From Nakazawaea peltata (taxonomy: Eukaryota > Ascomycota > Pichiomycetes > Alaninales > Pachysolenaceae), in NCBI GenBank assembly GCA_001599355.1, contig BCGQ01000005.1, positions 562,222 to 626,221 on the forward strand: 64,000 bases of DNA, read 5' to 3'. Made by a program: the position numbers and the translations under genes. The notes below the pieces were generated by a model. The model was not told where the DNA came from and made no database searches. It worked only from the letters and a program-made list of their open reading frames with translations. Below, piece by piece: positions 1 through 64,000 of the stretch (the first letter of the stretch is position 1; each line of letters begins with the position of its first letter).

Positions 1-555
1 ACCAAAGATTGTGTATTGGAATACCTTGGAGATGGAGAGATGTTGAACTCGTTCGTGGTCATTCATAACCAAGAAGAGATCGATGAGTATTACCTGGAGA
101 AACTGCTGCAAGAGAAGAGAAGAGAAGACTTTGAGAAGGCCAAGGTGGAAGAACTGGAGAAAGCAAAGCAAAAGAAACCTCCTCCAAGACGTAGAAGAGG
201 GTTAAGGTTGGGATCTAACAAGAAGTCGACTCCTCGTCAGTTACAAGAACCGGAACCGGAACCGGAACTCGTTAAACCTCAACCAATTTACTCGACGATA
301 ACCGTCAAGTTCTCTGAGATCCCCGACCATTGTGTCCAACTTATATTGAACTCGGCCAATCCTCTTGAAGAAGTTCAACAGAAGATGAGTCAAATCTTCG
401 CTGAGGGAATCAGGAAAGATCTTGACTATGTTTGGTATCAACTTGATGGTGTTATTGATGAAGTGTTAGCTGAGAAGTTAAGACACAATTTACAAACCCT
501 TGAGTCACAGAATGTCAAGAGAGTTGGTGGTAGTGGCCGTAAGAAGGATGATTGA
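1..555 (+). CDS. C-terminal part of an unrecognised protein (5' end outside window)
   Basis: The frame is open from the first base (T-K-D-C-V-L-E-Y...) to a TGA at 553-555, so this is the last ~184 residues of a longer gene. No early methionine looks like a real start. The visible part has a charged, helical Glu/Lys-rich stretch, then a basic patch (PPPRRRRGLRLGS), a Glu-Pro run (EPEPEPE) and a folded-looking tail ending GGSGRKKDD. I do not recognise the family. It converges on MDM10, whose stop lies about 75 bases away. The coding call rests on frame length and composition only. Confidence 0.7.
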   Translation, partial: TKDCVLEYLGDGEMLNSFVVIHNQEEIDEYYLEKLLQEKRREDFEKAKVEELEKAKQKKPPPRRRRGLRLGSNKKSTPRQLQEPEPEPELVKPQPIYSTITVKFSEIPDHCVQLILNSANPLEEVQQKMSQIFAEGIRKDLDYVWYQLDGVIDEVLAEKLRHNLQTLESQNVKRVGGSGRKKDD

Positions 556-629
556 ACTACAATGACTACTTAAAACTACATTCGATGATTTGTCATGGCC
601 TCATTGATACTATATACCTTTGTACTATA

Positions 630-1970
630 TTATGATGAATATTGTAACAGAAGTCCCATTGTAGGAACATTTAAACGATTATTTTTGAAGTCCAATTGGC
701 AACCTCCACTGAGTAAAAACCCTTGGAATTTACCTTCCCAAAGACATTTGAGGTCTTTATCTTTTAATGATGTTGATAATTTGACCACACTGGAGAAATC
801 CGTTTCATTTACAAGTTTGGAGAACGTTTTTATCACGTCATATTGGTCGGATGATTCTGTTGGTAAATGAAGTTTGGAGTCTAAAGTTTGCGGGTGAAGT
901 GTGGACTCATTTTCAATGATGTTAGTAGAGAATTTGGACGGTCTCTTTCTGGTGATTTTAATTGAATCTACATCCAGAGTCTGGTCCAAGAATCTTCGTG
1001 TATCTCTTTCGGTTCTCAACTTATGCTCTCTTGAAAGTCTCCATAATTCACATCCAATACTTAAATTACTTTCATAAGAATAGATATTAAAGTCGTATTT
1101 GGATGAAAAATTCGATCCCACACTCGTTCTCACACTATATGTGGAGCATAAATTACCCAATATAGGATTACATGACAATGTAAAAGTAAGAGGTTTGCCT
1201 GTGGATGTGGAATGTGTTGTATATCTCAAACTACTTGAAAATCCAGGTGACATATTGAAAGTCCCGTACCAGACTTCGGTTCCTAATGTCAACATCGAGC
1301 TATTAATATGCAAATTACGGGCAAAAGCATCGAGATTCTTGTCGAAAAGCTTCTTATAACGGTTATTATCATGATATCCAAAGTTATAAAGGAACCTAAA
1401 CCCTAAAAGAGCCTCATTAGTCGAGAAAATAAACTCTCTAGAGTACTTTCCTTTGTCATTTTGTAAATAAAAAGTCATTATTCCCGTGTTGAGGTTGAGT
1501 TTCCTGGTCTGTTTGGGGAGATTGATACATTTAACTATGAGCTGAGAGGTTGGAGAGAACCTGTTGATGTACATAGCTTCTAAAGCTCTGGTTGGAAGGT
1601 ACATTTTACCATACAACACACTTTCACTGCCCTTAAACGGCTCCGAATAACTATGAGGAGTCTTCTCGATGACCCTGTACCCATCGACAGCGTTCTGGAG
1701 AGGTATCAAAGTGGACCCGGTGACGGATTTCAAAGGTTTAGAGCAATACAAGTACGCCAACGACGCGTTAAGTTTCCCCGTATTGGAGAACCCGAAACTC
1801 GAATAGTTGAAGTCAGTCGACTTGGAGCTCACATCGAAGAAGAATCCTTTAGGGATCTTGAAGTTGATGATATTCTCGGAGGAGGCGAGGATGTTTTCAT
1901 ACAAGTTCTCGGTATTCCAGTTGGTTTCGGAATAGAAGCATTTTTGTATGTAATCCATGTAGGTGATCAT
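630..1970 (-). CDS. MDM10: Mdm10, mitochondrial outer-membrane beta-barrel (ERMES/SAM)
   Basis: A 446-residue protein beginning MITYMDYIQKCFYSETNWN, which matches the characteristic Mdm10 start. Further conserved stretches are YGKMYLPTRALEAM, LSPGFSSSLRYTTHSTSTGKP-like text in the middle (residues ~235-265), SIGCELWR, and LWEGKFQGFLLSGG near the end. Mdm10 is a 19-strand porin-like barrel. In the family it anchors the ERMES ER-mitochondria tether with Mmm1, Mdm12 and Mdm34, and it also joins the SAM complex during assembly of outer-membrane proteins. Length is close to the S. cerevisiae protein (493). The ATG at 1970 is used; a second Met four codons later is possible. No leader is expected for a beta-barrel, and none is seen. 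Confidence 0.95.
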   Translation of the reverse strand: MITYMDYIQKCFYSETNWNTENLYENILASSENIINFKIPKGFFFDVSSKSTDFNYSSFGFSNTGKLNASLAYLYCSKPLKSVTGSTLIPLQNAVDGYRVIEKTPHSYSEPFKGSESVLYGKMYLPTRALEAMYINRFSPTSQLIVKCINLPKQTRKLNLNTGIMTFYLQNDKGKYSREFIFSTNEALLGFRFLYNFGYHDNNRYKKLFDKNLDAFARNLHINSSMLTLGTEVWYGTFNMSPGFSSSLRYTTHSTSTGKPLTFTLSCNPILGNLCSTYSVRTSVGSNFSSKYDFNIYSYESNLSIGCELWRLSREHKLRTERDTRRFLDQTLDVDSIKITRKRPSKFSTNIIENESTLHPQTLDSKLHLPTESSDQYDVIKTFSKLVNETDFSSVVKLSTSLKDKDLKCLWEGKFQGFLLSGGCQLDFKNNRLNVPTMGLLLQYSS

Positions 1971-12620: not shown

Positions 12621-13898
12621 TTATTCCATTCTACACCAGGGTCTACCTCCATCCACTTGGAAATGACATAATTGAGGTTCTAAGAACATCGAGATCGTAG
12701 CCAGTAATACTACTCCAGCACTGTCACTCATTCCAACCAGTCCCATTGCGAATTCTCTATTTTCCAAAGCTGTTGTTTCACTCACTAACATGAAGGTATT
12801 CACATATGACAGACCTCCAAGTAATCCCTCATAAAACATCACTATCATCAAAATATAGATGTTAGGAATCACCATGAACAACGACTGGGCAATACATAAT
12901 GCTAAATTTAAGACTTGTAAAATACTAGGGATGTAAATTCTCTTGATTCTGATGAATGACGACGATGATCTCGAGACGAATACTCCCAATTGATATAATG
13001 TCCCGTATGTAACGTATAAATCCCTATACTTGTGGAAAGGTGTTTCTTCGATAGGAAATAAGAGCGTAGGTGATACACCTTGGTTGATGATGTATTCCGC
13101 CACATAAACAGAAAATAAGGGGATCATATATGGAACAACCAAGTGTCGAAGCTTGTTCAAGGTTATCTGACAATGATCCACTACCAGTTGTACTGACTGT
13201 ATTGTTAAAAGATCCAGTAATTTTGTTCCTGAATTAGAACGACTTGGAGCACCTGAAATTCTCAAATTCGACAGACTACTGCTATTACTGCTACCAAGAG
13301 AAGTCTCTTCATCACCAGGTAACGAAATATATCTACCCTTACTGAAAGATTTGACTGGATCTGGTAACAAAATGAAATATGTGTAGAAGAACAGGAAGGG
13401 AACAACGCAAAATAATAACAAACTAGTCTTAACACTGAGTCCTATCCATGTTGTCAACAAAAGATAACAGAAACTACCGGCTAAACCAGCACCTCCAGTA
13501 CCCGAACTGAATCCCTTCAATGAGAGATCACTGAAATAGTGAGTCAATTGCAAGAAAGTCAACTCTCCACATCCACTACTTAAAGATACCATCATAATAC
13601 TGAACAATCTCAACGCAATACTATGAGAGAACAGTATAATCAACATACCAACGACGTCCAATCCCACCATGATATAGATCCTGGTCTTATATGGGATCAA
13701 ATGAATGAAGAAAGGAGCCACCAATTTGAAGAGAAACAGGGGTAAAATATCTGCCAACAATACCGTTGCTTTAGGCACAAGAGACCCCACCAAATCCACC
13801 AGAGCCGACAAAATCACCACGTATAAAACATTATTGAGTAATCCGAAGATCCAGAAGGACACAAAGGTCCTGCGATCGATCGCACTGACTGTCGTCAT
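12621..13898 (-). CDS. BTN1: Btn1 (battenin/CLN3 family) vacuolar membrane protein
   Basis: A 425-residue polytopic protein with ~10-11 hydrophobic segments. Recognisable CLN3 blocks are FWIFGLLNNVLYVVILSAL at the start (residues ~11-30), SSGCGELTFLQLTHYF (~105-120), GFSSGTGGAGLAGS (~128-141), the YVAEYIINQGVSPTL region (~265-280) and FYEGLLGGLSYVNTF (~360-375). Battenins are lysosomal or vacuolar membrane proteins. Yeast Btn1/Yhc3 influences vacuolar pH and arginine uptake, and human CLN3 loss causes Batten disease. Length is close to S. cerevisiae (408). The loop at ~190-225 is Ser-rich and hydrophilic. ATG at 13898, 375 bases from the HCH1 stop. Confidence 0.95.
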   Translation of the reverse strand: MTTVSAIDRRTFVSFWIFGLLNNVLYVVILSALVDLVGSLVPKATVLLADILPLFLFKLVAPFFIHLIPYKTRIYIMVGLDVVGMLIILFSHSIALRLFSIMMVSLSSGCGELTFLQLTHYFSDLSLKGFSSGTGGAGLAGSFCYLLLTTWIGLSVKTSLLLFCVVPFLFFYTYFILLPDPVKSFSKGRYISLPGDEETSLGSSNSSSLSNLRISGAPSRSNSGTKLLDLLTIQSVQLVVDHCQITLNKLRHLVVPYMIPLFSVYVAEYIINQGVSPTLLFPIEETPFHKYRDLYVTYGTLYQLGVFVSRSSSSFIRIKRIYIPSILQVLNLALCIAQSLFMVIPNIYILMIVMFYEGLLGGLSYVNTFMLVSETTALENREFAMGLVGMSDSAGVVLLATISMFLEPQLCHFQVDGGRPWCRME

Positions 13899-18753: not shown

Positions 18754-19250
18754 TGAGTTTATTTAATGATTGCATAGTGTATAGACAATAATGTATTAAT
18801 AGATGATATTGAAGTAGAAGATGGTATGGGAGAGGAGGTTGTCTCGCAAATAGTTCTTTTAGATGGTTTTGGGCTCGTGGAGATCACTTTGTTTATCCGC
18901 CTTGATTTCCGATTTTGTTACCCCGCCTTACAGTGGAACTACCCCGCTTATTATCCGACAACCGGTGCCAAGACTTCTCCCATCCGTCAAATTTTCAATC
19001 CCCGGAACTCTCATTTACCCCCTTTTTCAAAATTATCCCTTTTCGCTCGGGTTCGGGTACTACTTTTTCGTTCACCCAATAATCCCCGCACATCTTTTCC
19101 CTTGATCTCGGATAGCAAAGTACAGTTCGCCACATCAAGATGTTGCAGATCATTTGCAGAAAGGAATGGAGCCGTACGGCGGAAAGGTCATCTCGAAGAG
19201 TATTTAAGGAACACAACAGCCGTGTATTTCAGTTTCGTTTCACCAGGAAA
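18754..19250. other. Intergenic region upstream of DPP3
   Basis: About 500 bases. TTACCCCGCCTTA (~18919) and CTACCCCGCTTA (~18940) form a short C-rich repeat that could be a regulatory site. An in-frame ATG at 19140 would add 37 residues to DPP3 (see that entry). Confidence 0.45.
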
Positions 19251-21305
19251 ATGTCATCAATTGATCGTACCATATACTATGCGGATGCTGGAGCACCTCT
19301 TGTGAACTTAACAGCTAAAGTTCACTTTGAAAAATTGTCTAAGAAGGAACAGTTATACACTCATTACTTCAGTAAGGCATGTAACGCCGGGGCTAAAGTT
19401 GTGTTGAGATCTGTTTCTCCTGAGAGTGAGGGTATTTATGACTTAATTATGGGAATTCATGGGAAATTGGGTGGTGAATATGAGAAGTTGAATGACAAGG
19501 TCTCAGAACAAGTTGTCACTGGATATTTACAGTATGCCTCTCAATTCTTGAGTAACTTGGGTAACTACAAATCGTTTGGAGATGTCAAGTTCATTCCTAG
19601 AATTGAAGAATCAGACTTTTCTCAATTGGTCGCTGCTACTGATGATGCTCAACTCATCAAATTGTACGACGAAATTAAAGAGCCATTGTTCTCTGTAGAT
19701 GAGAACAACAGTCTCTTGGGATGGAATAACAAGGGCCATGTTTCGTCGTATTATTTGAATGTTGTTTCTCAAGAGGAACTGACACTGGTTAATGAGGCAT
19801 TGGCTGGGCTGGGTATTTTACCACAAAACACTAGAGTCTCTAAAGTTGATGATGCCAATTTTATTGTTCATGTTGGTTCTGCTGATACTGAGAATAACAC
19901 TGGGTATTATCCTGAGTCTATCAAGTTTGAGATTGAGGGCAAGACTGCTTCGCTTACTTTCAAATTTGGTGATCACTCCAGAGAATTTGCCATGATGAGT
20001 GGTTTCCTTGAAGAGCTGAAGAAATATGCCAGAGATGAGAGACAGGCCAAGATGGTTGAACTTTATGTTGAGCATTTCAAGACTGGATCCATGAAGGCAC
20101 ATTGGGATTCTCAAATTGAATGGGTCTTGGATGTAAAACCTCCTGTAGAGACTAATATTGGATACATTGAGACTTATCGTGATCCTTCTGGAGTCAGAGC
20201 TGAGTTTGAAGGGTTCGTAGCAATGGTAAACAAAGACCGTACTCTGAAGTTCCTGACTTTAGTCGAAAATGCCCCTAAATTCATTGAACTCTTACCATGG
20301 GATGCCTCCTTTGAGAAGGATACTTTCCAAGCTCCGGATTTCACCTCTTTAGAAGTATTCACTTTCGCTAGTAGTGGTATCCCTCTGGGTATCAATATCC
20401 CTAACTACACTTTAGATGTCGGATTCAAAAACGTCTCTTTGGGTAATGTTTTGAGTTCCAGAGGTTCCAAAGAACCTACTCCATTCATTGAAGAGGAGTC
20501 CCAGGAAGTCTATGCTAAGTATAGAGTTGATGCCTTTGAAGTCCAAGTTGGTGCTCATGAATTACTTGGTCACGGAAGTGGAAAGCTTTTAAGTGAGACT
20601 GATGATGGTAAATTTAATTTCGACGTAGATTCTCCTCCTATTGGACTTGACGGTAAGCCTGTAACTACCTACTACAAGAAAGGTCAAACTTGGTACAATG
20701 TCTTTGGAGGTATGTCTGGAACCATGGAGGAATGTAGAGCAGAGCTTGTAGGTTTGTATTTACACCTTTCTAGAGAATTCCTTGAGATCTTTGGCTACAA
20801 GACCAAGGAGGATCAAGATAATGTCACTTATGTATCTTGGTTGAATATGGCCCATGGAGGTTTGGCCGGATTAGAACAATGGGATCCGGCTACCGGTAAA
20901 TGGGGTCAACCACACATGCGTGCTCGTTTCACTATCTTGAAGACCATGGTTGAATCAGGATTGGTCGAGTTGAGTTCATCTTTAGAAGATCACTCTGATT
21001 TGTTGATTAAACTTGACCGTTCCAAGATTGAAACAGTTGGTAAGAAGGCCGTAGGTGACTACTTGTTGAAATTACACATCTTTAAGAGCAGTGCTGATGT
21101 TGAGAACGGAATTGCTTTCTATAATGAGAAGTCTACAGTTGGTCCTGAGTTCGCAAAGTATAGGGATATTGTAATGAAGAAGAGATTGGCTAGAAGACAA
21201 TTTATTCAAGCCAACTCTGTCATTGAAGATGGCAAGCTCATTGTGAAGGAGTATGAAGGTACTGAGAAAGGTATGATTCAAAGTCACTTTGAGAGAGAAA
21301 CATAA
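19251..21305 (+). CDS. DPP3: Dipeptidyl-peptidase III (zinc metallopeptidase, M49)
   Basis: The preferred start MSSIDRTIYYADAGAP at 19251 gives 684 residues. The zinc-binding HELLGH motif is at residues 436-441, and EECRAE at 493-498 supplies the third ligand. Both are diagnostic of family M49. Other conserved blocks are NTRV (~195), SYRDP-like ETYRDPSGVRAEFEGFVA (~306-323) and the DFTSLEVFTFASSGIPLGIN stretch (~363-382). The enzyme removes dipeptides from the N termini of short peptides in the cytosol. An in-frame ATG at 19140 would add an Arg-rich, acid-poor leader that could target mitochondria. S. cerevisiae YOL057W has 711 residues, between the two models. One CTG codon (20016-20018) lies where the family has Ala. 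Confidence 0.95.
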   Translation: MSSIDRTIYYADAGAPLVNLTAKVHFEKLSKKEQLYTHYFSKACNAGAKVVLRSVSPESEGIYDLIMGIHGKLGGEYEKLNDKVSEQVVTGYLQYASQFLSNLGNYKSFGDVKFIPRIEESDFSQLVAATDDAQLIKLYDEIKEPLFSVDENNSLLGWNNKGHVSSYYLNVVSQEELTLVNEALAGLGILPQNTRVSKVDDANFIVHVGSADTENNTGYYPESIKFEIEGKTASLTFKFGDHSREFAMMSGFLEELKKYARDERQAKMVELYVEHFKTGSMKAHWDSQIEWVLDVKPPVETNIGYIETYRDPSGVRAEFEGFVAMVNKDRTLKFLTLVENAPKFIELLPWDASFEKDTFQAPDFTSLEVFTFASSGIPLGINIPNYTLDVGFKNVSLGNVLSSRGSKEPTPFIEEESQEVYAKYRVDAFEVQVGAHELLGHGSGKLLSETDDGKFNFDVDSPPIGLDGKPVTTYYKKGQTWYNVFGGMSGTMEECRAELVGLYLHLSREFLEIFGYKTKEDQDNVTYVSWLNMAHGGLAGLEQWDPATGKWGQPHMRARFTILKTMVESGLVELSSSLEDHSDLLIKLDRSKIETVGKKAVGDYLLKLHIFKSSADVENGIAFYNEKSTVGPEFAKYRDIVMKKRLARRQFIQANSVIEDGKLIVKEYEGTEKGMIQSHFERET

Positions 21306-35875: not shown

Positions 35876-36561
35876 ATGTCATCAGTATTCACACCAATAG
35901 AAGAGGCTTTACAAGCTTTCAGTATGTACAACTTCCCGAAACTTGCCCCATCCCTTCTCCCCATACTAACTCACCTCACTAAGAGAACGGAGAATTCCTC
36001 ATTGTCATGGACGATGAGAGCCGTGAAAATGAAGGAGACTTGATCATTGCCGCCGAGAAAATCACCACCGAAAAGATGGCTTTCTTGGTCCGCCACTCCT
36101 CTGGCTTCATTTGTGTACCCATCTTACCCGACAGAGCCGAAGAATTGGGCTTACATCCAATGGTTCCTAAGAACAGTGACAGACACGGCACCGCATACAC
36201 TGTCACCTGTGATTTCAGAGAAGGTACCACCACAGGTATCTCAGCACAAGATAGAGCATTGACAACTTTGAAATTATCCGACAAGACCCTGAAGGCCGAC
36301 GATTTCATGAAACCAGGCCATATTTGTCCATTGATCGCTAAACCAAAATTACTCCGTGAAAGAAGAGGACATACCGAGGCCGCTGTGCAGTTGTGTCAGT
36401 TGACTGGACTTCTGCCTGCTGGTGCCATCTGTGAATTAGTAAGAGATGAAGATGGTTTGATGATGAGATTGGACGACTGTGTTAAATTCGGTAAACTGCA
36501 TGGTATCAAGGTAATTAATCTCGACCAAATGATCGACTACATGGATGCCAATAACATCTAA
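35876..36561 (+). CDS. RIB3: Rib3, 3,4-dihydroxy-2-butanone-4-phosphate synthase, one intron
   Basis: Exon 1 (35876-35921) encodes MSSVFTPIEEALQAF plus the first base of a Lys codon. Exon 2 (35984-36561) continues K-N-G-E-F-L-I-V-M-D-D-E. The joined protein has 207 residues (S. cerevisiae 208). Signature blocks are DDESRENEGDLIIAAE (acidic metal/substrate loop), DRHGTAYTV, the GTTTGISAQDRA stretch, the RPGH-like KPGHICPL and RRGHTEAAV with its catalytic His. It converts ribulose-5-phosphate to the four-carbon precursor of riboflavin. Only six bases separate its stop from that of the convergent Rua1-like gene. An ATG-initiated model within exon 2 would lose the catalytic N terminus. Confidence 0.95.
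35922..35983 (+). other. RIB3 intron (62 bases)
   Basis: 5' site GTATGT (35922), branch point TACTAAC (35964-35970), 3' site CTAAG (ends 35983). The phase restores a conserved protein junction (AF-K-NGEFLIVMDDE). Confidence 0.94.
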
Positions 36562-36567
36562 GGATAT

Positions 36568-39508: not shown

Positions 39509-42500
39509 ATGGCGAAGAAAACTAAGAAGAGTAGCAAGTGGGCTGACGATGACTGGGAGAATGACATTCCAGGGAGCGAAGAAGCAGCTCCAGCCACCGC
39601 TGATGACGGCGCTAGTGCCGCTGTCAGTGAAGCCGAGTCGACTCCAGGTCCTCAAGAAGCTGTAGAGGCCACTGAAGACGACTTCATGAGTGCTATCAAG
39701 AAGTCTAAGACCAAGAAGAAGCTGAAGGAAGACGAAGAAAAGGCCAAGCCAAAGACCGGTCCAGTTATCAAATCCAAGAAGGAGAAGGAAAGAGAAAAGA
39801 AGGAGCTGGAGAAGCAGAGAAAGAAGGAGATTGCCGAGAAGAAGAAGGCAGCCGCCGATGCCAGAAAGCTGCTGGAAGATGCTGCTAAGGCCAAGAAGAA
39901 TGGTGGTGTACTTCCAGTTGAAGAATCCAAGCCAGAACCTGTCAAGGAAGAACTGCCTGTAGAGGAACCAAAGGAAGAGAAGAAATCTGCTCCAAAGAAG
40001 AAGAAGGGTGTTCCTAATGCTGCCATTGCTGCCTTGAAGAAGCAAATGGAGTTAAGAAAGCAATTGGAAGAACAGCAACGTCTTGAAGAGGAGGAGGAGA
40101 AGAGAAGAGAGGAGGAGGAAGAGCTGCTGAGACTGGCTGAGGAACTGCTGAAAGAAGAGGCCAGAAAATTGAAGAAAGAGAAAGAAAAGGCCAAGAAAGA
40201 GCAGTTGAAAGCCGAGGGTAAATTCTTGACTAAGAAGCAAAAGGAGGAGAAGAAGTTGCAAGAGAAGAGAAGACTGCTGTTATTGGCCAGTGGTGTTGTA
40301 GTTCCAGCCTTGAATGGAGATGCTGCTGCCACTCCAGCTCCAGCTTCTAAACCTAAGAGAATTTTGTATGGAGCCAAGAAGAAGAAGACCACCGATGCCG
40401 AGGCTGAGGCTAAGGCTAAGGCTGAAGCTGAGGCTAAGAAACTGAAGGAGCTGCTGGACGGTGAGGAAGAAGTCTTGGAGGACTGGGAAGCTATGGCTGA
40501 TGGAGATGAACCTCTTGTTGAGGATTGGGAACTGGCACTTTCTGATGATGCCGAGGGTGAGACCGAGGGTCAGTCCGAGGGCAACTCCGAGGGTCAATCC
40601 GAGGGTACCACCGAGGGTACCACCGAGGGTGAAACCGATGCTGAAGCTGAAGCCAAGGCTGCCGCTGAAGCCAAGGCTAAAGCCGAAGCCGAAGCTAAAG
40701 CTGCCGCTGAGGCTGCTGCTCAAGCTAAAGCCGCCGAGGAAAAGAAGAAACAAGTCTCCAAGAAATCCAAAACTCCAGCTCAAGATGAATCTAACATGCG
40801 TTCTCCTATTTGTTGTATTCTTGGTCACGTCGATACCGGTAAGACCAAATTATTGGATAAGATTCGTCAAACTAACGTCCAAGGTGGAGAAGCCGGTGGT
40901 ATTACGCAACAAATCGGTGCTACTTACTTCCCAGTAGATGCCATCAAGCAAAAGACTGCTGTCATGGCTGCTTATGAGAAACAAACCTTCGATGTCCCAG
41001 GTTTGTTGATCATTGATACCCCAGGTCACGAGTCTTTCACCAATTTAAGATCCAGAGGTTCCTCGTTATGTAACATTGCCGTCTTGGTCATTGATATCAT
41101 GCATGGTTTGGAACAACAAACTATCGAGTCCTTGAGATTGTTGCGTGAAAGAAAGGCTCCATTCATTGTTGCCTTGAACAAGATTGATCGTCTTTACGAC
41201 TGGAAAGAGACTCCAAACAACTCTTTCAGAGACTCTTTCGCTAAGCAAGGAAGAGCTGTCCAAAGTGAGTTCCAAGACAGATTGGAGAAGGTCAAATTGG
41301 CTTTGGCCGAGCAAGGTCTTAACTCTGAGTTGTATTTCCAAAACAGAAACATGTCCAAGTACGTTTCCATCGTTCCTACTTCTGCCGTCACCGGTGAAGG
41401 TGTTCCAGATTTGATCTGGTTGTTGTTGGAATTGACTCAGAAGAGAATGAGTAAACAATTGATGTACCTTTCCAAGATTGAGGCCACTGTCTTGGAAGTC
41501 AAGGTTGTCGAAGGTTTAGGTACTACTATCGATGTCGTCTTGTCCAATGGTATCTTGAGAGAGGGAGACAGAATTGTCATTTGTGGTTTGAATGGACCTA
41601 TTGCGACGAACGTGAGGGCCTTGTTGACCCCACAACCATTGAGAGAATTGCGTATTAAATCCGAATATGTTCATCACAAGGAGGTAAAAGCCGCTCTCGG
41701 TGTTAAAATCGCCGCTAATGACTTGGAAAAGGCCGTTGCCGGTTCCAGATTGTTAGTTGTTGGTGAAGATGACGACGAAGACGAATTGATGGACGAAGTT
41801 ATGGACGATTTGACCGGTTTATTAGACTCTGTAGACACCACTGGACGTGGTGTTACCGTCCAAGCTTCCACCTTGGGTTCTTTGGAAGCCTTGTTGGATT
41901 TCTTAAAAGACATGAAGATCCCAGTTATGTCCATTGGTTTAGGTCCTGTCTACAAGAGAGATGTCATGAAGGCAACTACCATGTTAGAGAAGGCCAAAGA
42001 GTACGCTGTCATGTTATGTTTCGATGTCAAGATTGACAAAGAAGCCGAACAATACGCCGAAGAACAAGGTATCAAGATCTTCAGTGCCGATATTATCTAT
42101 CATTTGTTCGATGCTTTCACTGCTTATCAACTGAAATTGTTGGAGCAACGTCGTAAGGACTTCTTGCATGAGGCCGTATTCCCATGTGCTTTGAGAACTA
42201 TTCAAATCATTAACAAGAGAGAGCCAATGATCATCGGTGTTGATGTTTTGGAAGGTACCGTTCGTATTGGAACTCCAATCTGTGCCGTCAGAACTGACCC
42301 TGTAACTAAGGCCAAGAATGTCTTACTTTTAGGTAGAGTTGCTTCTTTGGAAGTGAACCACAAGAGTGAAACTCAAGTCAAGAAGGGTCAAACCGCTCAA
42401 GGTGTTGCTGTCAGATTAGATAACCCAAGTGGACAACAACCAGTTTGGGGAAGACATGTCGACGAGAGTGATACTTTGTATTCTCATATCACCAGAAGAT

Positions 42501-42598
42501 CCATTGATACTTTGAAGGATCCAGCCTTCAGAGATTCTGTCCCAAGAGAAGATTGGTTACTTATCAAGACCTTGAAGGGGGTGTTTGATATTAAATAG
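39509..42598 (+). CDS. FUN12: Fun12, translation initiation factor eIF5B
   Basis: The first ATG (39509, [20 protein letters not shown]) gives 1029 residues (S. cerevisiae 1002). The first ~430 residues are a charged, Lys/Glu/Ala-rich region including [14 protein letters not shown]-type repeats. The GTPase domain begins with [16 protein letters not shown] (~436-451), then [21 protein letters not shown] and NKIDRLYDW. Domains II-IV follow, with [13 protein letters not shown] and the ending [15 protein letters not shown]. eIF5B joins the 60S subunit to the initiation complex on the start codon. CTG codons are frequent in the N-terminal region, where Ala is plausible, and nearly absent from the conserved G domain. 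Its GC-rich codon use there differs from the neighbours. Confidence 0.97.
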
Positions 42599-45056: not shown

Positions 45057-48000
45057 CTAAATACACGGCATCTTTGCCAATAACTCAAAACTACCCGTAC
45101 CAACATTACTCAACTTACCTGTAACAATCCTAGCAGAAGGAGAATCCAAATCCTCCTTCTCATTATCCAAAACTGCCTTAGTCAAGAACTGACATGTAGT
45201 CTCATAAGACATCTTCATGAAAGCAGAAGTAGAAGAATCGATACCTTGACGATTGAAAGCCAAGTAAGTACCTTCTCTAGTCATCATATCACCGATCAAG
45301 TCCAAATGTCTAGAAGAAACCGAGATGGCGTATCTTCCAAACACGTTATTGATCTCATTAACGATAGTGTTTCTGGCCAGTTCGACACCGTAAGTTCTCA
45401 ATACGGCGGCAACATCGTTAGATGTAATACCATTGACATCGATAAAGTCTTCTTGATCCCACATAGCTTGGAAGTTGACACCCTCCGTAACCAAGACACG
45501 TTTACCATTCTCGGGCTCAGGTTGAACACATCTTCCAATATGAGGAATCTCTCTAACGACAACCTTCTTACATAAATCCTCAACTATGTTCACCATCAAA
45601 AGCTTTTGGGTCTCGGAAGGTAACTCCAATTTGAATTCACACCATGACCCATTGGAATCGTCAAAGTTAAACTTGGAGATCAAGTTATGCTGAGTGATCA
45701 CCTCTTGCTCTCTCTCTTTAGCCGATTTGGTCATCGACGACTGGACTCCACTCATCACCAGATCACCTTCCTCATCTTCAGACGACTCCTCACTAGTAAC
45801 AGAATCACTATCATCATCATCATCTTCCTCATCGGAAGTCTCTTCGGCAGCCTTCATAGTCTCAAGCTCTTCATCGTCAGGGCCATCATAAGAAACAGCT
45901 TGCTTAGTGTTACTACGTTCCTTATCATCGTCGGCATCTTCATCCTCTTCGGCACGACTAACTCTAACGGCCATCTCACTTTGTTGTCTTGGAACGGCTG
46001 CTCCAACTGTAGGCAACGACTCACTGTTTGGTTTCTTCTGTTTCTTGATCTCCTTGCCAATAACAGACTCCAATTGTTGTAAGAACTTACTAGTAACGAC
46101 ATGCTCTAACTCGGCCTGAGATACATCATACTCAACCTCATACTCAGTCTTGTCGTAGAATCCCAAGTTGATCACATACGATCTACCGGCATCACCCGAT
46201 CCAGTCGTAGCCCCGATGGTCTCGGTAACAGTGACCTTGTCGATGAACTCGGCAAGACTGACCTTGGCAACAGCTTTACAGAAAGTCTGAGCTTGTTCAT
46301 CATTGACATCATCCAAGATCGGTAAAGTCATTTGAGGAGTCTTAATCGCAGCCGAGGCCGTCATGATGATTTCTCTCATACGAGGAATACCCAAGGTGAC
46401 ATTAGCAGCACCGTGACCGGCGAAATGGAAGGTGTTCAAAGTCATCTGAGTAGATGGTTCACCAATCGACTGAGATGCAATGATACCAACGGCTTCTCCA
46501 GGGTTGATCAACGATCTCATGTACTTCAATTGCATCAAAGCACGGAACTTCTTCTCGGTCAAAGCTCCATTGGCCTTGGCTTCCTTCGATTTGGCGAACA
46601 ATTGAGGATTCTTCTCGATGAAACTGTCCAATTTCAGAGCAAATGCCTCAGAAACAGACCCAAGATACTTCGATGGGTTATATACAGACAATACCGGGTC
46701 GTATTTGGTGTCCTGTTCATAATGAGGAACGTTCTCCACCTTCTTCATATGCTTCTTGGACTTCTTCGAGTAGTGTAAAGCAGCCTCGGTATCCAATTGG
46801 TCGACCAAATCTCCAGGGTTGTATTTACGGATCAACGACTCGTAGTTCTCAGCACAGAACTTGAACTCGTACATATGAGATTCCTTGGTGACGTCGACAG
46901 CATCTCCTCCATACAAGAATTGGATCAAAGTACCATCTCCATCTCTGACAGAGTTGTCGTAAGAGACATGGACACCCTCGAATTGCTTGGTCAAACATCT
47001 TTGCAAGTAACCGGATCTCGACGTCTTGACAGCAGTATCGATCAACCCTTCTCTACCGGCCATACAATGGAAATAGTATTCTTGAGGTCTAATACCAGAA
47101 TAGAATCTACCCTTGATATAACCACCTGCTCTGGCATCGGTTTCGTATGCTTTAAATGAAGGTAAAGTCTTACCGGAAACCATGACAGGAACTCTACGAC
47201 CTTCTAAAGCTTGTTGACCCAAAAGACACATGATCTGAGAGACGTTAACGTTGGATCCCTTGGCTCCAGAAAGAGCCATGGCTTGCATCGAATTGTACGG
47301 GAATCTCTTCATAGTTCCGTCCGGAACACAACGAGAAACAACCTCAGAAGTAATGGCATTCACCTTGGATTGAGTCACAGCATCCAAGATACCCGACTTG
47401 TTGTCGTCTCTCAAGATCTCCTCCAATCTACGTAACAACTCAGGATCATCTACAGGCAGATCTACCGGTAAATTGGTGACCTCGGCAGCAGCAGCTCTTC
47501 CACTGTCGACGGACTTCTTCAAGATCTCGGTTCTCCATTGGTTACCTTCCAGAGTCAATCTCAAGTCGTCCATACCACAGGTGAACCCGGTCTGGGTGAT
47601 ATAGTTGGTGAATAATCTACCCAACACACTCAAAGCCTTACCAGCAACGGTAGGACCATAAACCTCGTGCAAAGAATGGACAATACCGAATTTGGAGGCT
47701 CCATATTGAGATTTATCCAAGATACCACACACCAATTCACCGTTCTTGAAGATGACATCGTTCTCACTTGAACCTTTACCCCAATAGTCGGATTTGATCT
47801 TGTTCTTAGAGACCAAATTGACACCAGGCATGTCTTCAGGCTTGATATTCAACAACACCGTAGTGATGATCTGTTTACCGGTCCATAAAGGTTCTGGTTT
47901 GAAGATGGCTGGAGCAACGGTCTTGATACGGACTCCAGAAGTATGTCCATCCTCCGGACGAACACATCCATACACCAACTGATGGTATTGTTCTCTGGTG

Positions 48001-49973
48001 AAGAAACTGTCCTTGGAAGTCAACCAAACACCAGCCGAGATATGGTCCTGGATCAACCCTCTCAATGGAGAACCAGAAGTTGGAGTCAAGTATTGAGAAT
48101 CGGTGTTGGCCAAGTTGAGAGCCTCGGCTTTGGCATTCTCGTTCTGTGGGAAATGCATATTCATCTCATCACCATCGAAATCGGCATTGTAAGCACCGGT
48201 GTTGGCATAGTGTAATCTTAAGGTCTTCTCTCCAGGCAAGACTCTGACTTTGTGACCCATCATCGACAGTTTATGTAATGTTGGCTGTCTGTTCATGATC
48301 ACCACGTCGTTGTTCTTGATGTGACGGTACACTTTCTTGTTAATGACGACACTGTTGGTCGACGATGGAGTAAGCAATTGGTTGGCAATGGCTTTTCTTT
48401 GGTCTAAAGTCATTCCGATCAAAGAGATCAAACTTCCGTCCTCGTTTTGGACTTGGATAGCTCCCGGCCACTTGTCAGGACCGTTGATGATCAGCTTACG
48501 GAGCTCGGCAACATTATGAGGAGTCACCGGCTCAGGATATGTCAACTTCTTAGCAAAGACTGGAGGAACTCCAATCTCGTTAGTCTCGATCATCGGATCT
48601 GGAGAGATGACCGATCTGGCTGCGTAGTTGACTCTTTTACCCATCATATGCTTTCTGAACAAACCTTCTTTCTTCTCCAAGGCCTGCTTGACACCTGGAG
48701 TTGGTAATCTGGAAGAGGCTTGTTGTTGAGCCTTGGTGGAATCGATGAAAGCATTCACATCGTTCTGGATAGTTACAAAGGCATTCATGAGTCTGTTGAA
48801 GACGATTCTACGGTCCAGAGCTGGAGTTTGATCTTTTCTGAACGAGTACATTTGCTCATTCAAGTCTCTGATCAATAATGAGGTGGTCAAGACTTTGGAA
48901 AGCAACGAGTTTTGAGAGTTCTCATGGATTTCATCTCCTAATTTAGATGGTAATCTGAATCTGGTTGGAGGAACTACAAGAGCTTGAATGAAGAAGATAT
49001 CTGGAGAGACGGTGGCCTTGGAACCAGGTCTCGAGTTGAATACGTATCTGAGTACCGACTGTTCTTTTCTGAACACAGCTCTCATCAAGTTTCTCACTTG
49101 AGAAGACAAGACGTATCTTGAACCTTGCTTGGATTTCACAGATGGGACAGAAGTGGTCTCGGAGGTTGTGTTGTCTCCATTCTCCCTGATCATATCCTTC
49201 CTCTGTAATCCCTTCACTCTATTATTGGTCATCTGCTTGTCTTTCAACTCATTCTCGAATATCTTCACGAACCCATCCTTCCTATAAGTTGGACTGTACA
49301 TTCCACAGTTATCACATTTAGGTCTACTCAATAATCTCTTATAGAAGGTGTGGATCAAATGCTTTCTCTCCTCACCGACAGTGGCAGTGTGGACACCGGC
49401 CTCGGTGACTCTACCTTCACTCAATGCCTTAGCAATGCTGGTTTCGACGAACAACTGACGTTGTTCACGGAGCTCTTGTTCAGCTTTGACGTCGACGTAT
49501 CTTGGTCCTCCATCGTCTTCTTCGGCTTCGTCATCGTTACCGAAATCTCCAAGATGCAAGTTGTCCAACTCAGCAGCCTCCAATAACAATCCGTACTGCA
49601 ATAATCTCAACTTACACTCGATATTATGCACTTCCAACTTGTTCAATCTGAAATGATGACAGTAAACACAACAAGAACGCAAGTAAATGTAGAGTTGACT
49701 GAAGAATAATGGGTTATAAACAGGTGTAGGCAAGTCAATGTGCCCTTGGTGACCTGGACAAGCCTTCTCATCCAATCCACAAGTAGCACACAAGTTCCTC
49801 AAGAATGCTCCCAATGCCAAATCATACAATCCTCCATTGACTGGATGGCCCAAGTTGTCGAAGACCGTTGGGTTGGTGATTTGCTTGGCTGAAAGAGTCC
49901 TGATTTCTTCTGCGGACAAGATCCCGAAGTCAACCGACTCGATCTCTGATCCCACAGGTTTCGAAATATCCAT
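45057..49973 (-). CDS. RPA190: Rpa190, largest subunit of RNA polymerase I
   Basis: 1638 residues (S. cerevisiae 1664). The N-terminal zinc site is [17 protein letters not shown] (~residues 58-74). The catalytic loop [15 protein letters not shown] is near residue 600 with its three Asp intact. [20 protein letters not shown] (funnel/bridge region) and the trigger-loop segment [18 protein letters not shown] follow. An acidic insertion lies at ~1380-1430 ([20 protein letters not shown]), as in other Pol I A190 subunits. It transcribes the rDNA in the nucleolus. CTG codons at 45378-45380 and 47550-47552 occupy positions that are Ala in the S. cerevisiae protein (EAAR and LTAEG). Start ATG 49973; RRPE upstream. 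Confidence 0.98.
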   Translation of the reverse strand: [1638 protein letters not shown]

Positions 49974-55939: not shown

Positions 55940-57565
55940 ATGAGTTCGGTGGTGACTTCAAAGACAATTAACTGCTTGACCAATATGATTGGGCTTTTTA
56001 TATTGCCACTTTTATTTTTGGCAGTTAAATGCGATGATATTGAGGAATGTGAGTGTATGGAAGATGTTTCCACAGTAGAGATTTGTCAGGAATGCTGGAC
56101 TACAACTTCTGTGGTTTCTTCGGTTTCTACATTTTGGGTCACTTCTACAGGAAGTAGTTCGATTCAAGAGACTGATATCACCACCACTGTGAATGTTTGC
56201 GACGAATGTGTGACTTCAAGTGAGATTGAAAGTGAAGTTTATAGTAGTTGGGTTGAAATTACTAGTAGTGAGGAAGTTGAGTCAAGTGTTGAGGCAACAA
56301 GTGAGATTGGTAAGTCTACAGAGACTAGTATGAGTGATACTTCTGCTACTGAAATCAGTTCTACTATTACATCCAGCAAAACTTCAAATGTTAGTTCAAG
56401 TACCATTACCCCTACTGCATCTGATTCTAGTTCTAGTACTACTTCCAGCTCTACTTCCACTTCAAGTTCCAGCACTACTTCCAGCACTACTTCCAGCACT
56501 TATTCCAGCACTACTTCCAGCACTACTTCCAGCACTACTTCCAGCACTACTTCCCGTACATTTGTCCCTATATCATCTAGTTCAGCTGTTACCACCTCAA
56601 TACCAAAGACTGCCACCAAAACTTCTTTCACCGAACCTTCATGTTTTGAGTCCAGCTCAACTAACTCTGCTTCCACTACTGGTATTATCACTTCTACTTT
56701 GACCACTACCACTAGCAGTAGTGAAGTCTCTACTTCTAGTTCTGTGACTTCTACTTCTATTAGCGAAAGTTCTACTTATAACTGTGAGAATGATAATTCA
56801 ACCACTGAGTCAAGCTCAAGCTCTGACTCAACTCAAAGTTCAACTTCAATCCGTCCTACTCAAAGAACTACTACAGATACAGATTTTACTTGCGGTGAGA
56901 CATCTAGTTCTAGTTCGAGTTCCAGTTCTAGTTCCAGTTCTGGTTCTTCGTCCACTCCTATTTCCACCTCAAAAACTAGTCCTTCTACATCAGCACAAAC
57001 CAAAGGCACAAGTACTTCCACGGAGATAACAAGTGAACTGACTACTATTACAAAATCTGTTCACTGCCCTGATTGTGAAGGTCAGACCACTGGCTCTTCA
57101 AGTATCACCACTGAGGCCACCCTCATCTTGGCCACCACCACTACTTCCTCTTCTGTAAACCCTGATTCCAAAACTTTCAATAGACAAATAACCGAAACTA
57201 ATGACTCCACCACCAGTGAATTCACCAAGATACAGACAAGAACCATACCAGCAACTCAAACCATATCCACCACATCCATAACCTCTATCCAATCAGCGAC
57301 CTCATCATCTCCAGCTACGAAATCATCAATAGACCTGACACAAATAACCTCACAAGAAACAGAAGAATCCACCTTCTGCTCTGATTGTCAAACAGAAGAA
57401 TTCACCATATGTTCTGATTGTCAAGAATCAACTTCTACAACTATCTCGACTCTCACAACTACATCCAGCTCATCCGAACCAATCTCCATCACTCTCTTCC
57501 AAGGATCATCCTCCAAAATCACCCCCTCTATTTACTTTCTTACACTCATTCTTTTCTTTATTTAA
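55940..57565 (+). CDS. Adhesin-like Ser/Thr-rich GPI-type surface protein with CxxC motifs
   Basis: 541 residues. The signal region has a hydrophobic core NMIGLFILPLLFLAVKC (~15-31). The body is over half Ser/Thr. It includes a 12-base repeat (CTTCCAGCACTA, ~56449-56550) encoding TSSTTSST-type text. Short C-x2-C elements are spread along it (CQEC, CDEC, CPDC, CSDC, CSDC), each in a similar context. The last ~20 residues (SKITPSIYFLTLILFFI) are a GPI-type hydrophobic tail. It is likely a heavily O-glycosylated wall adhesin. The SPO7 stop is 23 bases beyond this gene's stop. Ligand unknown. Confidence 0.82.
   Translation: MSSVVTSKTINCLTNMIGLFILPLLFLAVKCDDIEECECMEDVSTVEICQECWTTTSVVSSVSTFWVTSTGSSSIQETDITTTVNVCDECVTSSEIESEVYSSWVEITSSEEVESSVEATSEIGKSTETSMSDTSATEISSTITSSKTSNVSSSTITPTASDSSSSTTSSSTSTSSSSTTSSTTSSTYSSTTSSTTSSTTSSTTSRTFVPISSSSAVTTSIPKTATKTSFTEPSCFESSSTNSASTTGIITSTLTTTTSSSEVSTSSSVTSTSISESSTYNCENDNSTTESSSSSDSTQSSTSIRPTQRTTTDTDFTCGETSSSSSSSSSSSSSGSSSTPISTSKTSPSTSAQTKGTSTSTEITSELTTITKSVHCPDCEGQTTGSSSITTEATLILATTTTSSSVNPDSKTFNRQITETNDSTTSEFTKIQTRTIPATQTISTTSITSIQSATSSSPATKSSIDLTQITSQETEESTFCSDCQTEEFTICSDCQESTSTTISTLTTTSSSSEPISITLFQGSSSKITPSIYFLTLILFFI
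56449..56554 (+). repeat. In-gene 12-base tandem repeat (TTCCAGCACTAC)
   Basis: About eight consecutive near-identical copies inside the adhesin-like gene, in frame. Such arrays change length by slippage in yeast adhesins. Confidence 0.75.
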
Positions 57566-60287: not shown

Positions 60288-61814
60288 TTATATAGTTTCA
60301 TCAATCATTAACGATTTAATGTTTAAATAAGACTCGACACCGTACTTAGAACCTTCTCTACCGAACCCTGACTCCCCTACACCTCCAAATGGAAGAACAG
60401 GATCCGAAACGATCCCACTATTGACACCGATCATTCCAACATGGAGTTTCTCAGCAACTCTCATGATCTTGGAATGATTTTGTGAGAAGAAATAGCCGGC
60501 AAGCCCGTAAGGAGTATCGTTGGCGAGCTCCAAAACCTCAGACTCAGTCTTGAACTTGAACAAGGGAGCAATTGGTCCGAACGCCTCCTCCTTAGCTATT
60601 TTCATCTTCAGATTACAATCTCCCAAAATAGTCAAATCATGGAATAAAGGTCCAAGCGAAGGTTTCAGATGTCCACCTACAAGGACGGAAGCTCCATGTT
60701 TCTTGGCATCTTTAACCAAATCCTGGATCTTAGTCATCAGTTTATCATGAATTAACGGTCCATGGGTAGTGGATTCGTGGAAACCATCCCCCAATTTGGT
60801 CTCTTGTTCTACCTTTTTAGTGAACTTTTCAGCAAACTCGTCATAAATTGATTCATGGAGATAGATACGATTAGCACATACACAAGTCTGACCAGATTGA
60901 CGGAATTTAGAAGCCATCAGTTGGTTGACAGCATGGTCCACATTGGCATCTTCAAACACAATGAACGGAGCATTTCCTCCTAACTCCATTGAGATTTTCT
61001 TCAACGTATCTGAAGATTGCAGCATGAGGATCTTTCCTACGTTGGTAGAACCGGTGAACGAGATTTTACTGATAGCCGGAGACTGACAGAACAACTTCCC
61101 GAAGTCAGATGTACGAGAATGAGATGTAGGAAGAACATTCATAACACCTTTAGGAAGACCAGCTTCAGCCGCTATGTAAGATAAAGCTAACAGGGAGAGG
61201 GGGGTTTCTGCGGCTGGTTTAATTACGGCAGTGCATCCGGTAGCAATAGAAGCACCTAATTTACGAGTTATCATAGAAGAAGGGAAATTCCAAGGGGTTA
61301 AAATACCAACTACACCTACAGGCTGTTTTAAAGTGAGTACTCTTTTGCCTGGGAGTGAGGCAGAAACGATATCGCCATAAAGTCGAGGGGCCTCTTCACC
61401 GAACCATTCGAAGAAGTTTGCGGCATAGCTCACCTCACCCATCGAATCAGCAAAAGGCTTACCATTTTCCAGTGTGATAATGGTGGCCAAATCGTGTTGG
61501 TTCTCCATCATGATTTCGTACATATTTCTTAAGATACGGGCTCGTTGACGAGGGGTATGAGTTGCCGAGAATGATTCGAAGGCCAATTTCAGTTTTTCAA
61601 TGGCCATTTTGGCATCAGAAAGATCCAATTCAGTCACCGAAGCAATCGTTTCTCCGGTAGAAGGATTATTAACGTCGAATTTGTCACTTCTTGAGACCCA
61701 TTCACCGTTAATATAGGCATCAGTAATAAGAAGATTGGGGTTTTTGAGGTCCAATTGGCGGAAATTGGAGGAAGAAAAGAATCTTCTGCAAAGTGAAGCT
61801 TGAAATTTAGGCAT
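60288..61814 (-). CDS. UGA2: Succinate-semialdehyde dehydrogenase
   Basis: 508 residues of the aldehyde dehydrogenase superfamily. TPWNFPSSMITRK (~173) binds NAD(P), ELGGNAP carries the general base E277, and SGQTCVC the catalytic C311. FGREGSKYGVESYLN near the end is typical of the GabD/Uga2 group. It oxidises succinate semialdehyde to succinate in the GABA shunt. The start MPKFQASLCRRFFSSSNFRQ is Arg/Ser/Phe-rich without acids, like a mitochondrial leader, and adds ~10 residues to the S. cerevisiae length (497). The CTG codons for residues 75, 208 and 299 sit on family Ala positions (AIE-x-A, TPLSALAL, QAMASKF), which is key evidence for CUG = Ala. Confidence 0.96.
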   Translation of the reverse strand: MPKFQASLCRRFFSSSNFRQLDLKNPNLLITDAYINGEWVSRSDKFDVNNPSTGETIASVTELDLSDAKMAIEKLKLAFESFSATHTPRQRARILRNMYEIMMENQHDLATIITLENGKPFADSMGEVSYAANFFEWFGEEAPRLYGDIVSASLPGKRVLTLKQPVGVVGILTPWNFPSSMITRKLGASIATGCTAVIKPAAETPLSLLALSYIAAEAGLPKGVMNVLPTSHSRTSDFGKLFCQSPAISKISFTGSTNVGKILMLQSSDTLKKISMELGGNAPFIVFEDANVDHAVNQLMASKFRQSGQTCVCANRIYLHESIYDEFAEKFTKKVEQETKLGDGFHESTTHGPLIHDKLMTKIQDLVKDAKKHGASVLVGGHLKPSLGPLFHDLTILGDCNLKMKIAKEEAFGPIAPLFKFKTESEVLELANDTPYGLAGYFFSQNHSKIMRVAEKLHVGMIGVNSGIVSDPVLPFGGVGESGFGREGSKYGVESYLNIKSLMIDETI

Positions 61815-62128
61815 TGTGATTTAATTGTAACTCAATATCGTACCACCACCTCTTGATATCTTCAATTATTCATCTAGCAATATAAGTGAGATCCATATTT
61901 TCGTACATATTTTTTTCCTTTTGTGGAGAAAATATGTATTTTGCCTTGAGTGATCCCCCATCTCGTCGTCCGTTTTGGTCTAAACTTTGTGCCAAAAAAA
62001 GTCTACGAATGAGGAATTTAACATTGATAATATGGAGGAAAAATAAAGTGAAGAAAATAAAGGCAAGACTTGAAAGGAAGACTTCAAAGGAACAGTGGCA
62101 GATCAAGAGAAGTCGAGAGAAACTCAAA
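61815..62128. other. Divergent intergenic region UGA2 / HAP3
   Basis: 314 bases between the two chosen starts. The frame of HAP3 stays open upstream to an ATG at 61886, but the encoded text is not Hap3-like and the extension would leave only ~70 bases to UGA2. It is treated as leader and promoter. Confidence 0.55.
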
Positions 62129-62731
62129 ATGTCAAGCGATAATAGTAGTATGTTGAATATCAACGAAGTAGAGTTGAGAGAACAAGACAGGTGGCTTCCC
62201 ATTGCCAACGTACTGCGGTTGATGAAGAACACGCTCCCATCGACATCAAAAGTATCTAAAGACGCCAAAGAATGTATGCAAGAATGTGTAAGTGAATTCA
62301 TATCGTTTGTGACATCTGAGCTGTCGGATAAATGTTTGAACGAGAAGAGAAAGACGATCAACGGAGAAGATATCTTATATTCGATGCATTCGTTGGGGTT
62401 CGAGAACTACGCAGAGGTGTTGAAAATCTATTTGACCAAATACAGAGAACAGCAACTGTTGAGGCAAGAACGTAGTGAAAATGTTGGTAAGAAAAAGAAG
62501 CTGAGTAAAAATGAGTCCAAATCCGAAGGGCAAGAATCCAACAGTGGGGAAATGGGCGATTCGGAAGGTCTTGGCCATATCAAAGATACCGAGGAACACG
62601 ACGAAACAGATCAAGACAAAAATGAGAAATTAGATCAAGAGACTGATCTGGTGAAGTCTGGTGAAACTTTTGGTGGGATTGAATATCCTCTGGACCTGAC
62701 AGGAGATGAGAATATATTATATGGGTTTTAG
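62129..62731 (+). CDS. HAP3: Hap3 (NF-YB), CCAAT-binding complex subunit
   Basis: The ATG at 62129 gives 200 residues. The histone-fold CBF-B domain spans ~18-107, with [31 protein letters not shown], the [20 protein letters not shown] stretch and [15 protein letters not shown], all nearly identical to the family. The C-terminal half is charged and rich in Asp/Glu/Ser. The protein pairs with Hap5 and joins Hap2 (and Hap4/HapX) to bind CCAAT and control respiration and iron genes. CTG codons at 62213-62215 and 62321-62323 correspond to Ala in S. cerevisiae (NVARLMK and SEASD). Met 62129 is chosen because Hap3 proteins have short N termini. Confidence 0.95.
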
Positions 62732-63489
62732 GGATGAACCGAGGTCAAACCGAGCACGATACGAGGAGGGGGCTAAGGAGGATCTACTATACGACGGTTC
62801 ATATTGCCCTTTCCGGATTTGTGCTAAGTTAATGGTGGTTGAACGAGGTGTGTTAGATTGAACGAGATTACCAAAACGAACAAGTTAATAATCTTAACGA
62901 GTTAACGAGCTGACCAATTTTAGCCAACTGAACGAGTTAACGAATTTAACGAACTTGACCCGATCTGCTCAGCACTTTATTAAATTCGGTGCAAATTATT
63001 TATTGTGTACTATTAGTTATTGTTAAAGTAGGGGCATAAGTGCTCTCAATAAACAAGTTTGATTTATTGGTGTAGAGGGTAGAGGTGGAGGGGTAGACAA
63101 CGATTGACGATATGTAGACTACTACAGACAGTGGAATTGTCTTCTTCCTACTACTATCTGCTGCTAGCTACTAGCTACGAGCTACCGCCTCCCACTATCT
63201 ACTACCATCTTCTACCACTTCCTATTAGCTACTACCATACTGTTAACATATCTGCCCTTTCTATACTGTAGCTGCCCTTCCCCTCCTATCCTGCCCTTTC
63301 TGCCCGTACTCCGAACTTTCCCCTATTTTCCCTCTCTTTCCCCCTATTTTCTCCACCGTTTCCAAAATTCGCCCCTTTCACACGACCCAGCGCGAAATCC
63401 ACCAACAATCGCCACTTTCCTCCTTCAACTCTCCTTTCAAATTACTAATCCATTCCAACCTCCAATTGATTAAACCCCCCAAATAAATC
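62732..63489. repeat. Intergenic region with AACGAG and CTACTA low-complexity repeats
   Basis: 758 bases. 62840-62960 contains about eight AACGAG / TTAACGA words (GTTAACGAGCTGACC, GAACGAGTTAACGAATTTAACGAAC). 63140-63250 is CTACTA/GCTACTAGCTAC-rich, and 63250-63480 is a pyrimidine-rich promoter-like tract. No gene is recognised. Confidence 0.6.
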
Positions 63490-64000
63490 ATGTATTATTC
63501 GAGGGGATTACGTGTGAGCGGTCGTTTGACCACTCGGAGATACCAGCGCCAAGTCGCCAGATTGGCCTCCTCCCTCTCGGACTTCCAAACCGAACTCATC
63601 TTAAGAAAGACATTAGAAGATGATACACGGACACTCTTAAGACAGTTAAAAGCGGGCAATTCGGGTGTCAGGAGTCTTGATAATGGAATATTCGTGGCTC
63701 CGATACCTAGCGCCGAGCAAATTCACAGTCGTCTGCGGATGTTTGACCCCAATGGGCGCGAAGGAGCTCCATCGGGAGCTCTTCCGGTCGTGAATTCTCC
63801 GGTTTTAGAACTGAAGGCCGGATCAAAGAAGATCGCAAGGTCCAAGAAATCAAGTGATGACTCTAAGACCGACGAGGCAGTCAAAGAAGATAAGGATTCC
63901 GAGGAGACTCCGCTGGAGAAGCCAGAAGTCCCGGAAACTACCGAGGATAAACCTGATAAACCTGACTCTGCTGTTGCCGAGACGGCTGAAGGTAGTGGTG
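63490..64000 (+). CDS. 5' part of a gene running out of the window, probably mitochondrial
   Basis: The ATG at 63490 opens a frame with no stop to the window end (170 codons). The N terminus MYYSRGLRVSGRLTTRRYQR is Arg-rich with no acids until about residue 30, as in mitochondrial leaders. A short helical, folded-looking stretch follows (DFQTELILRKTLEDDTRTLL), then an acidic, Lys/Glu/Pro-rich low-complexity region from ~110 on (EAVKEDKDSEETPLEKPE). The functional domain would lie beyond the window. No family recognised; the upstream C-rich tract is promoter-like. Confidence 0.7.
   Translation, partial: MYYSRGLRVSGRLTTRRYQRQVARLASSLSDFQTELILRKTLEDDTRTLLRQLKAGNSGVRSLDNGIFVAPIPSAEQIHSRLRMFDPNGREGAPSGALPVVNSPVLELKAGSKKIARSKKSSDDSKTDEAVKEDKDSEETPLEKPEVPETTEDKPDKPDSAVAETAEGSG

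Follow-up and report, generated by a model that had tools for sequence, protein, structure and literature searches.

CUG is read as alanine in a yeast nuclear genome with a single-copy alanine-type tRNA(CAG)

The alanine reading of the codon CUG (NCBI table 26) is already published for the Alaninales (taxid 2926620, family Pachysolenaceae). In the sections of PMC5951914 cited here, this code is known in Pachysolen, Nakazawaea and Peterozyma, the tRNA(CAG) of the clade is stated to descend from tRNA-Ala, and Krassowski et al. (2018) describe the reassigned clades as using CUG relatively rarely and at poorly conserved sites. We analyzed a window, the whole stretch of 64,000 nucleotides at positions 562222-626221 of contig C5 in an 11-contig assembly of 11.63 Mb, and found that the nuclear code almost certainly reads CUG as alanine, via a single-copy alanine-type tRNA(CAG). 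The assignment rests on an observed correspondence between codon and residue and on a tRNA gene with the matching identity elements. The finding is thus of a known kind and, because the code is common to the Pachysolen/Nakazawaea/Peterozyma clade (Alaninales), we infer that the organism is a member of it.

The residue facing each CTG codon was read from alignments in which CTG was masked as X and each protein was aligned to one solved orthologue. The set comprised seven window proteins and the chaperonin subunits CCT1 (L087) and CCT5 (L089) from other contigs; for RPA190 and UGA2 the initial search was unmasked, and their column counts come from a masked realignment. Alanine faced 55 of the 83 aligned CTG columns in these nine proteins, with a binomial probability of 1.6e-41 against a background of 7.5%. 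The remaining columns held Ser (five), Leu, Glu and Lys (four each), Thr, Asn, Gln and Cys (two each), and Asp, Met and Val (one each). The window proteins gave Ala in 18 of 34 columns and Leu in 4 of 34, and the two chaperonin subunits gave Ala in 37 of 49 and Leu in none. Where local identity was at least 0.8, CTG faced Ala in 23 of 27 columns, the others being two Glu, one Cys and one Thr, with no Leu and no Ser. The initial annotation had claimed that CTG encodes alanine, and the columns bear this out: Ala dominates, and CTG is not mainly opposite Leu or Ser.

CTG groups with the alanine codons, since its share of columns facing Ala (66%) lies amid those of GCA (82%), GCC (73%) and GCT (56%); among codons with 15 or more columns, the next one reached 14%. 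Overall, GCN codons faced Ala in 209 of 321 columns, Ser codons faced Ser in 215 of 361, and Leu codons other than CTG faced Leu in 368 of 470. A leave-one-codon-out likelihood agreed with the standard code at 58 of 61 codons and called CTG as Ala; ATG and TGG were not callable because they have no sister codon, and eight codons rest on fewer than eight columns each. The log-likelihoods for CTG were -127.9 for Ala, -220.2 for Ser and -383.3 for Leu, placing Ala ahead by 92 and 255 log-units, respectively. If the standard code applied, CTG would have to lie on Ala columns by chance or through fast evolution. Four CTG columns do face Leu, but CTG was used in only 4 of the 486 columns where the reference has Leu, though it makes up 15.5 per 1000 codons (1.5%) in the 32 window open reading frames (ORFs). 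These are mechanical ORFs, with gene status verified for part of them, and CUG forms 23% of their Ala codons. With the 58 other callable codons all standard, the column counts and the likelihood refute the standard code, whose probability we consider negligible; the Pfam sums given below also favor Ala.

Individual CTG sites were followed in the genes listed below. The protein-coding genes of the window include RPA190, FUN12/eIF5B, DPP3, BNA3, HAP3, COG4, a CLN3-like gene and RIB3. Gene names such as UGA2 are in part those of the initial annotation, and the PDB chains are taken to be yeast, fission yeast, human, mosquito, rice and bacterial proteins.

45057..49973, minus strand: RPA190, RNA polymerase I largest subunit; match to PDB 4c2m_A over 1-1636; eight CTG codons
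45378..45380, minus strand: RPA190 CTG residue 1532; Ala in the three orthologues aligned (yeast, fission yeast and human)
47550..47552, minus strand: RPA190 CTG residue 808; Ala in 4c2m_A (yeast), Glu in 7aoc_A (fission yeast)
48492..48494, minus strand: RPA190 CTG residue 494; Ala in both orthologues aligned
60288..61814, minus strand: UGA2-like succinate-semialdehyde dehydrogenase; eight CTG codons
61191..61193, minus strand: UGA2 CTG residue 208; Ala in 5/5 rows
60918..60920, minus strand: UGA2 CTG residue 299; Ala in 5/5 rows
61934..62731, plus strand: HAP3, NF-YB histone-fold subunit, longest ORF; CTG at 62213 and 62321 inside the fold
62213..62215, plus strand: HAP3 CTG residue 94; Ala in 3/4 rows, Ser in 1/4 (the rice protein)
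62321..62323, plus strand: HAP3 CTG residue 130; Ala in 4/4 rows
19140..21305, plus strand: DPP3, dipeptidyl peptidase III, longest ORF; seven CTG codons
23222..24577, plus strand: BNA3, kynurenine aminotransferase; five CTG codons, residue 386 facing Leu in 3b46
39509..42598, plus strand: FUN12 (eIF5B); 17 CTG codons, 16 in the N-terminal part and one in the 600-residue core
12621..13898, minus strand: CLN3-like membrane protein; ten CTG codons
51508..53952, plus strand: COG4; eight CTG codons

Each coordinate given in the initial annotation holds an in-frame CTG. The alanine positions it had proposed were found in every aligned row at RPA190 45378, at UGA2 residues 208 and 299, at HAP3 62321, at DPP3 20016 (residue 293; 5/5 rows, of which three are human, one is yeast and one fungal) and at BNA3 24173 (residue 318; 5/5 rows). 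Other proposed positions proved to be alanine in part of the rows. These were RPA190 47550 and HAP3 62213, as listed above, BNA3 23474 (residue 85; the yeast and human enzymes have Ala and the mosquito one Asn) and UGA2 residue 75 (Ala in two bacterial rows, Ser in the third, a gap in the human rows). At UGA2 residue 359, as at 208 and 299, Ala stands in each of the two human and three bacterial rows; DPP3 residues 369 and 416 likewise have Ala in all five of theirs. In 4c2m_A, RPA190 residues 494, 569, 808 and 1532 all face Ala, and the four remaining CTG codons of RPA190 face Glu, Thr, Asp and Lys. The scarcity of CTG at conserved Leu positions, also proposed earlier, was confirmed in FUN12: the core (residues 429-1028, G domain included) has a single CTG, at 875, facing Glu, and of its 67 other Leu codons 62 face Leu.

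A second test compared 30 proteins (20 window genes and 10 from other loci) with Pfam after translation by tables 1, 26 and 12. Scores were summed over 43 domains in three sets of ten proteins, with NSA1 omitted from the sums because every NSA1 match was under the curated cut-off. The sums for Ala minus Leu were +44.1, +60.5 and +119.8 bits, and those for Ala minus Ser were +15.2, +20.2 and +60.6 bits. Per domain, Ala scored above Leu in 31 and below it in 6, and above Ser in 28 and below it in 8, the rest being ties. With Leu, Ala and Ser, respectively, the Aldedh domain of the UGA2-like protein scored 510.2, 524.9 and 519.3 bits, HAP3 scored 82.4, 91.2 and 88.4, the CLN3 family match of the CLN3-like protein 483.6, 503.9 and 497.7, and COG4_N 62.3, 70.5 and 66.9.

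The likelihood and the domain scores also bear on a serine reading of CUG, of the Ser1 or Ser2 type (table 12). Ser ranks second in the column likelihood and surpasses Ala in the eight domains just counted, but it faces CTG in 5 of 83 columns where Ala faces it in 55, it is absent from the 27 best-conserved columns, and it lies 92 log-units below Ala. Since columns, likelihood and Pfam sums all favor Ala, the serine code was rejected, and we consider it extremely improbable.

A genome-wide fixed-pattern search identified one tRNA(CAG), at G000:C4:81426-81498 (L068:1469-1541), and a DNA search shows a single copy. In the ARAGORN fold it is of type I: its variable loop has five bases, its anticodon loop reads TTCAGGT, and it has G3:U70 and A73. 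The program names it Leu from the anticodon. A T run lies 3' of the gene. The tRNA(CAG) scores 50.9 bits against the Rfam tRNA family (gathering score 29) with permissive filters and 67 bits with a tRNA model built in this analysis, and an Rfam search of the locus with fast filters gave no match. Among 27 type-I tRNA rows, a table that has some genes in two registers and leaves out intron-bearing and Leu/Ser tRNAs, the sole carriers of G3:U70 are Ala(AGC), Ala(TGC) and tRNA(CAG). The initial annotation had proposed looking for alanine identity elements in a tRNA(CAG), with a leucine or serine identity as the finding that would speak for another code. The sole tRNA(CAG) found has G3:U70 and a short variable loop and is not Leu- or Ser-shaped, but it also bears A35, G37 and A73. 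Its lack of a long variable arm is a further point against serine, as is the absence of a CAG anticodon from the six genomic hits to a Ser-type CAG pattern with up to three mismatches. A Leu-type NAG pattern with up to two mismatches gave eight hits in the genome (by their letters one AAG, five CAA and two TAA), none of them CAG, although a diverged gene could escape this search. ARAGORN reported no tRNA at the pattern hits L067, L094-L096, L098 and L099, and detected none in the window.

With its type I fold, G3:U70 and A73, the tRNA(CAG) is presumably a substrate of alanyl-tRNA synthetase (AlaRS), which is likely to charge it through G3:U70. In the portions of the literature cited, AlaRS depends on G3-U70 (PMC6451123) and does not need the anticodon (PMC5951914).

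Several observations weigh against alanine as the meaning of CUG, or against its being the only one. Leu is opposite CTG at UGA2 residue 115 (in 3jz4), DPP3 residues 216 and 224 (in 3csk) and BNA3 residue 386. Ser exceeds Ala in GTP_EFTU_D2, DHBP_synthase, MOSC_N, Aa_trans, Snf7, COG4_m, COG4_C (0.2 bits in each of the two COG4 domains) and L092, and Leu exceeds Ala in Rpb1_2, IF-2, GTP_EFTU_D2, L085, L091 and L092. In the weak NSA1 matches, the top two families score best with Ser. The FUN12 IF-2 and GTP_EFTU_D2 domains contain no CTG codons, so their losses are not evidence about sites; our guess is that the composition of the N-terminal part is responsible. The inventory of tRNAs is incomplete, an Rfam genome scan having scored 63 of 608 candidates, and the scan does not report the tRNA(CAG) gene. 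Finally, three MOSC-like paralogues, 74-80% identical, stand in tandem at 24871-30161 on the minus strand (Pfam was run on one of them), and standard Ala codons face CTG in none of their 43 pairwise CTG columns. These columns pair CTG with CTG (27), Pro (4), Leu (3), Ser, Met, His and Arg (2 each) and Val (1). A likely reason for the missing pairing is that two bases separate CTG from GCN.

The leucine observations raise the possibility that CUG is mostly Ala yet measurably Leu, through the leucine determinants of tRNA(CAG) or through wobble by tRNA-Leu(UAG). The A35 and G37 of the loop TTCAGGT, with the discriminator A73, make up the yeast leucine identity set as given in the cited part of PMC8629427, and in the cited part of PMC5951914 a 3% leucylation of the Candida albicans tRNA is attributed to G37. 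Leu also occurs at 4 of 83 CTG columns compared with 4 of 321 GCN columns, and a tRNA-Leu(UAG) gene is present. On the other side, the best-conserved CTG columns have Leu in 0 of 27, the excess has a P of 0.06, and the only tRNA-Leu(UAG) gene found has a long intron. Mass spectrometry in the clade, as described in the cited part of PMC5951914, identified Ala as the main product, with low-level others still possible according to its authors. Given the P of 0.06, we make no claim of residual Leu, and consider a measurable leucine share quite unlikely.

The leucine tRNA concerned is located as follows.

G000:C4:804518-804725 (L082 / L100), minus strand: tRNA-Leu(UAG); sole gene found, single copy by DNA search

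When the splice site is set manually at 37/38, its intron measures 120 nt, and ARAGORN accepts the spliced form. The predicted folding energy of the gene is -74.4 kcal/mol (z -6.25 versus 200 shuffles) and that of the intron alone is -37.9 kcal/mol (z -5.6); no shuffle was as stable in either case. Of all sense codons in the window, CTA is used least (13 of 15727). CTG makes up an uneven fraction of the Ala codons in aligned columns, from 1 of 42 in FUN12 to 30 of 50 in CCT5, whose aligned part has 30 CTG versus 20 GCN. Among the other leucine tRNAs, L075:1490-1595 is called tRNA-Val(cac) by ARAGORN, and its D arm and long variable arm fit the tRNA-Leu(CAA) genes; it is probably a tRNA-Leu(CAA) with a short intron.

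One way of joining these features with the alanine reading is that tRNA-Leu(UAG), a potential wobble reader of CUG, is limited by its folded 120-nt intron while CTA stays almost unused. Such throttling would keep the alanine reading clean, and because tRNA(CAG) bears A35, G37 and A73, CUG would be expected to yield a small share of leucine. The same proposal would have the tRNA(CAG) arise from a tRNA-Val-like body that acquired G3:U70, instead of from an anticodon change in a tRNA-Ala. Without the anticodon, the tRNA(CAG) is identical to Val(TAC) at 51 of 70 positions and to Ala at 49 of 70. In the D arm it shares 17 of 19 positions with Val(TAC) and 13 of 19 with Ala; in the 3' acceptor strand it shares 6-7 of 8 with Ala and 4 of 8 with Val. 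In ancestry trees neither the Ala nor the Val grouping was rejected (p-AU 0.213 and 0.485). Taken as a whole, this joint proposal is speculative and in our opinion improbable.

Among the remaining genes of the window, RIB3 was also compared with a solved orthologue.

36007..36561, plus strand: RIB3, DHBP synthase; CTG residues 95, 136 and 164 facing Ser, Gln and Lys in 1tks

The RIB3 ORF begins at 1tks residue 24, and its 5' region (35870-36010) contains GTATGT at 35922 and TACTAAC at 35964. The gene probably has a 5' intron, with the ORF as exon 2. Ser/Thr-rich proteins encoded at 2373-4040 and 55940-57565 have N-terminal hydrophobic stretches by eye, and are probably cell-wall or secreted products.

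Because the code itself is already published, the practical value of these results is in annotation: a standard-code translation misplaces Leu at CUG in 15.5 of every 1000 codons of the window ORFs, and 30 times in CCT5. The leucine tRNA set, with its long-intron UAG gene and near-unused CTA, is relevant to the question of how the old meaning of a reassigned codon might be kept out. We encountered no report of a long structured intron for tRNA-Leu(UAG), or in this clade, in the parts of the literature examined. The nearest parallel is in some Leu1-clade yeasts, which in the cited part of PMC5951914 have tRNA-Leu(CAG) genes with introns of 134-318 nt. As there, a leucine tRNA of the CUN box here has a long, strongly folding intron, but this one, of 120 nt, belongs to a UAG gene in a CUG-Ala genome. 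The CUG-Ser1 code of the Candida clade (table 12) is similar in that CUG was reassigned via a new tRNA(CAG), with G37 as in C. albicans (PMC5951914, in part), and differs in that the residue here is Ala and the variable arm of the tRNA(CAG) is short. The closest likeness is to the code of Pachysolen tannophilus, Nakazawaea and Peterozyma, with CUG as Ala, an alanine-type tRNA(CAG) and no Leu-type tRNA(CAG) found. The cited sections of PMC5951914 state a tRNA-Ala origin, and here neither Ala nor Val ancestry is rejected. The genome departs from the description by Krassowski et al. (2018) in that CUG occurs at 15.5 per 1000 codons and forms 23% of Ala codons in the window ORFs. It is a useful case in which CUG is a common alanine codon, conserved sites included.

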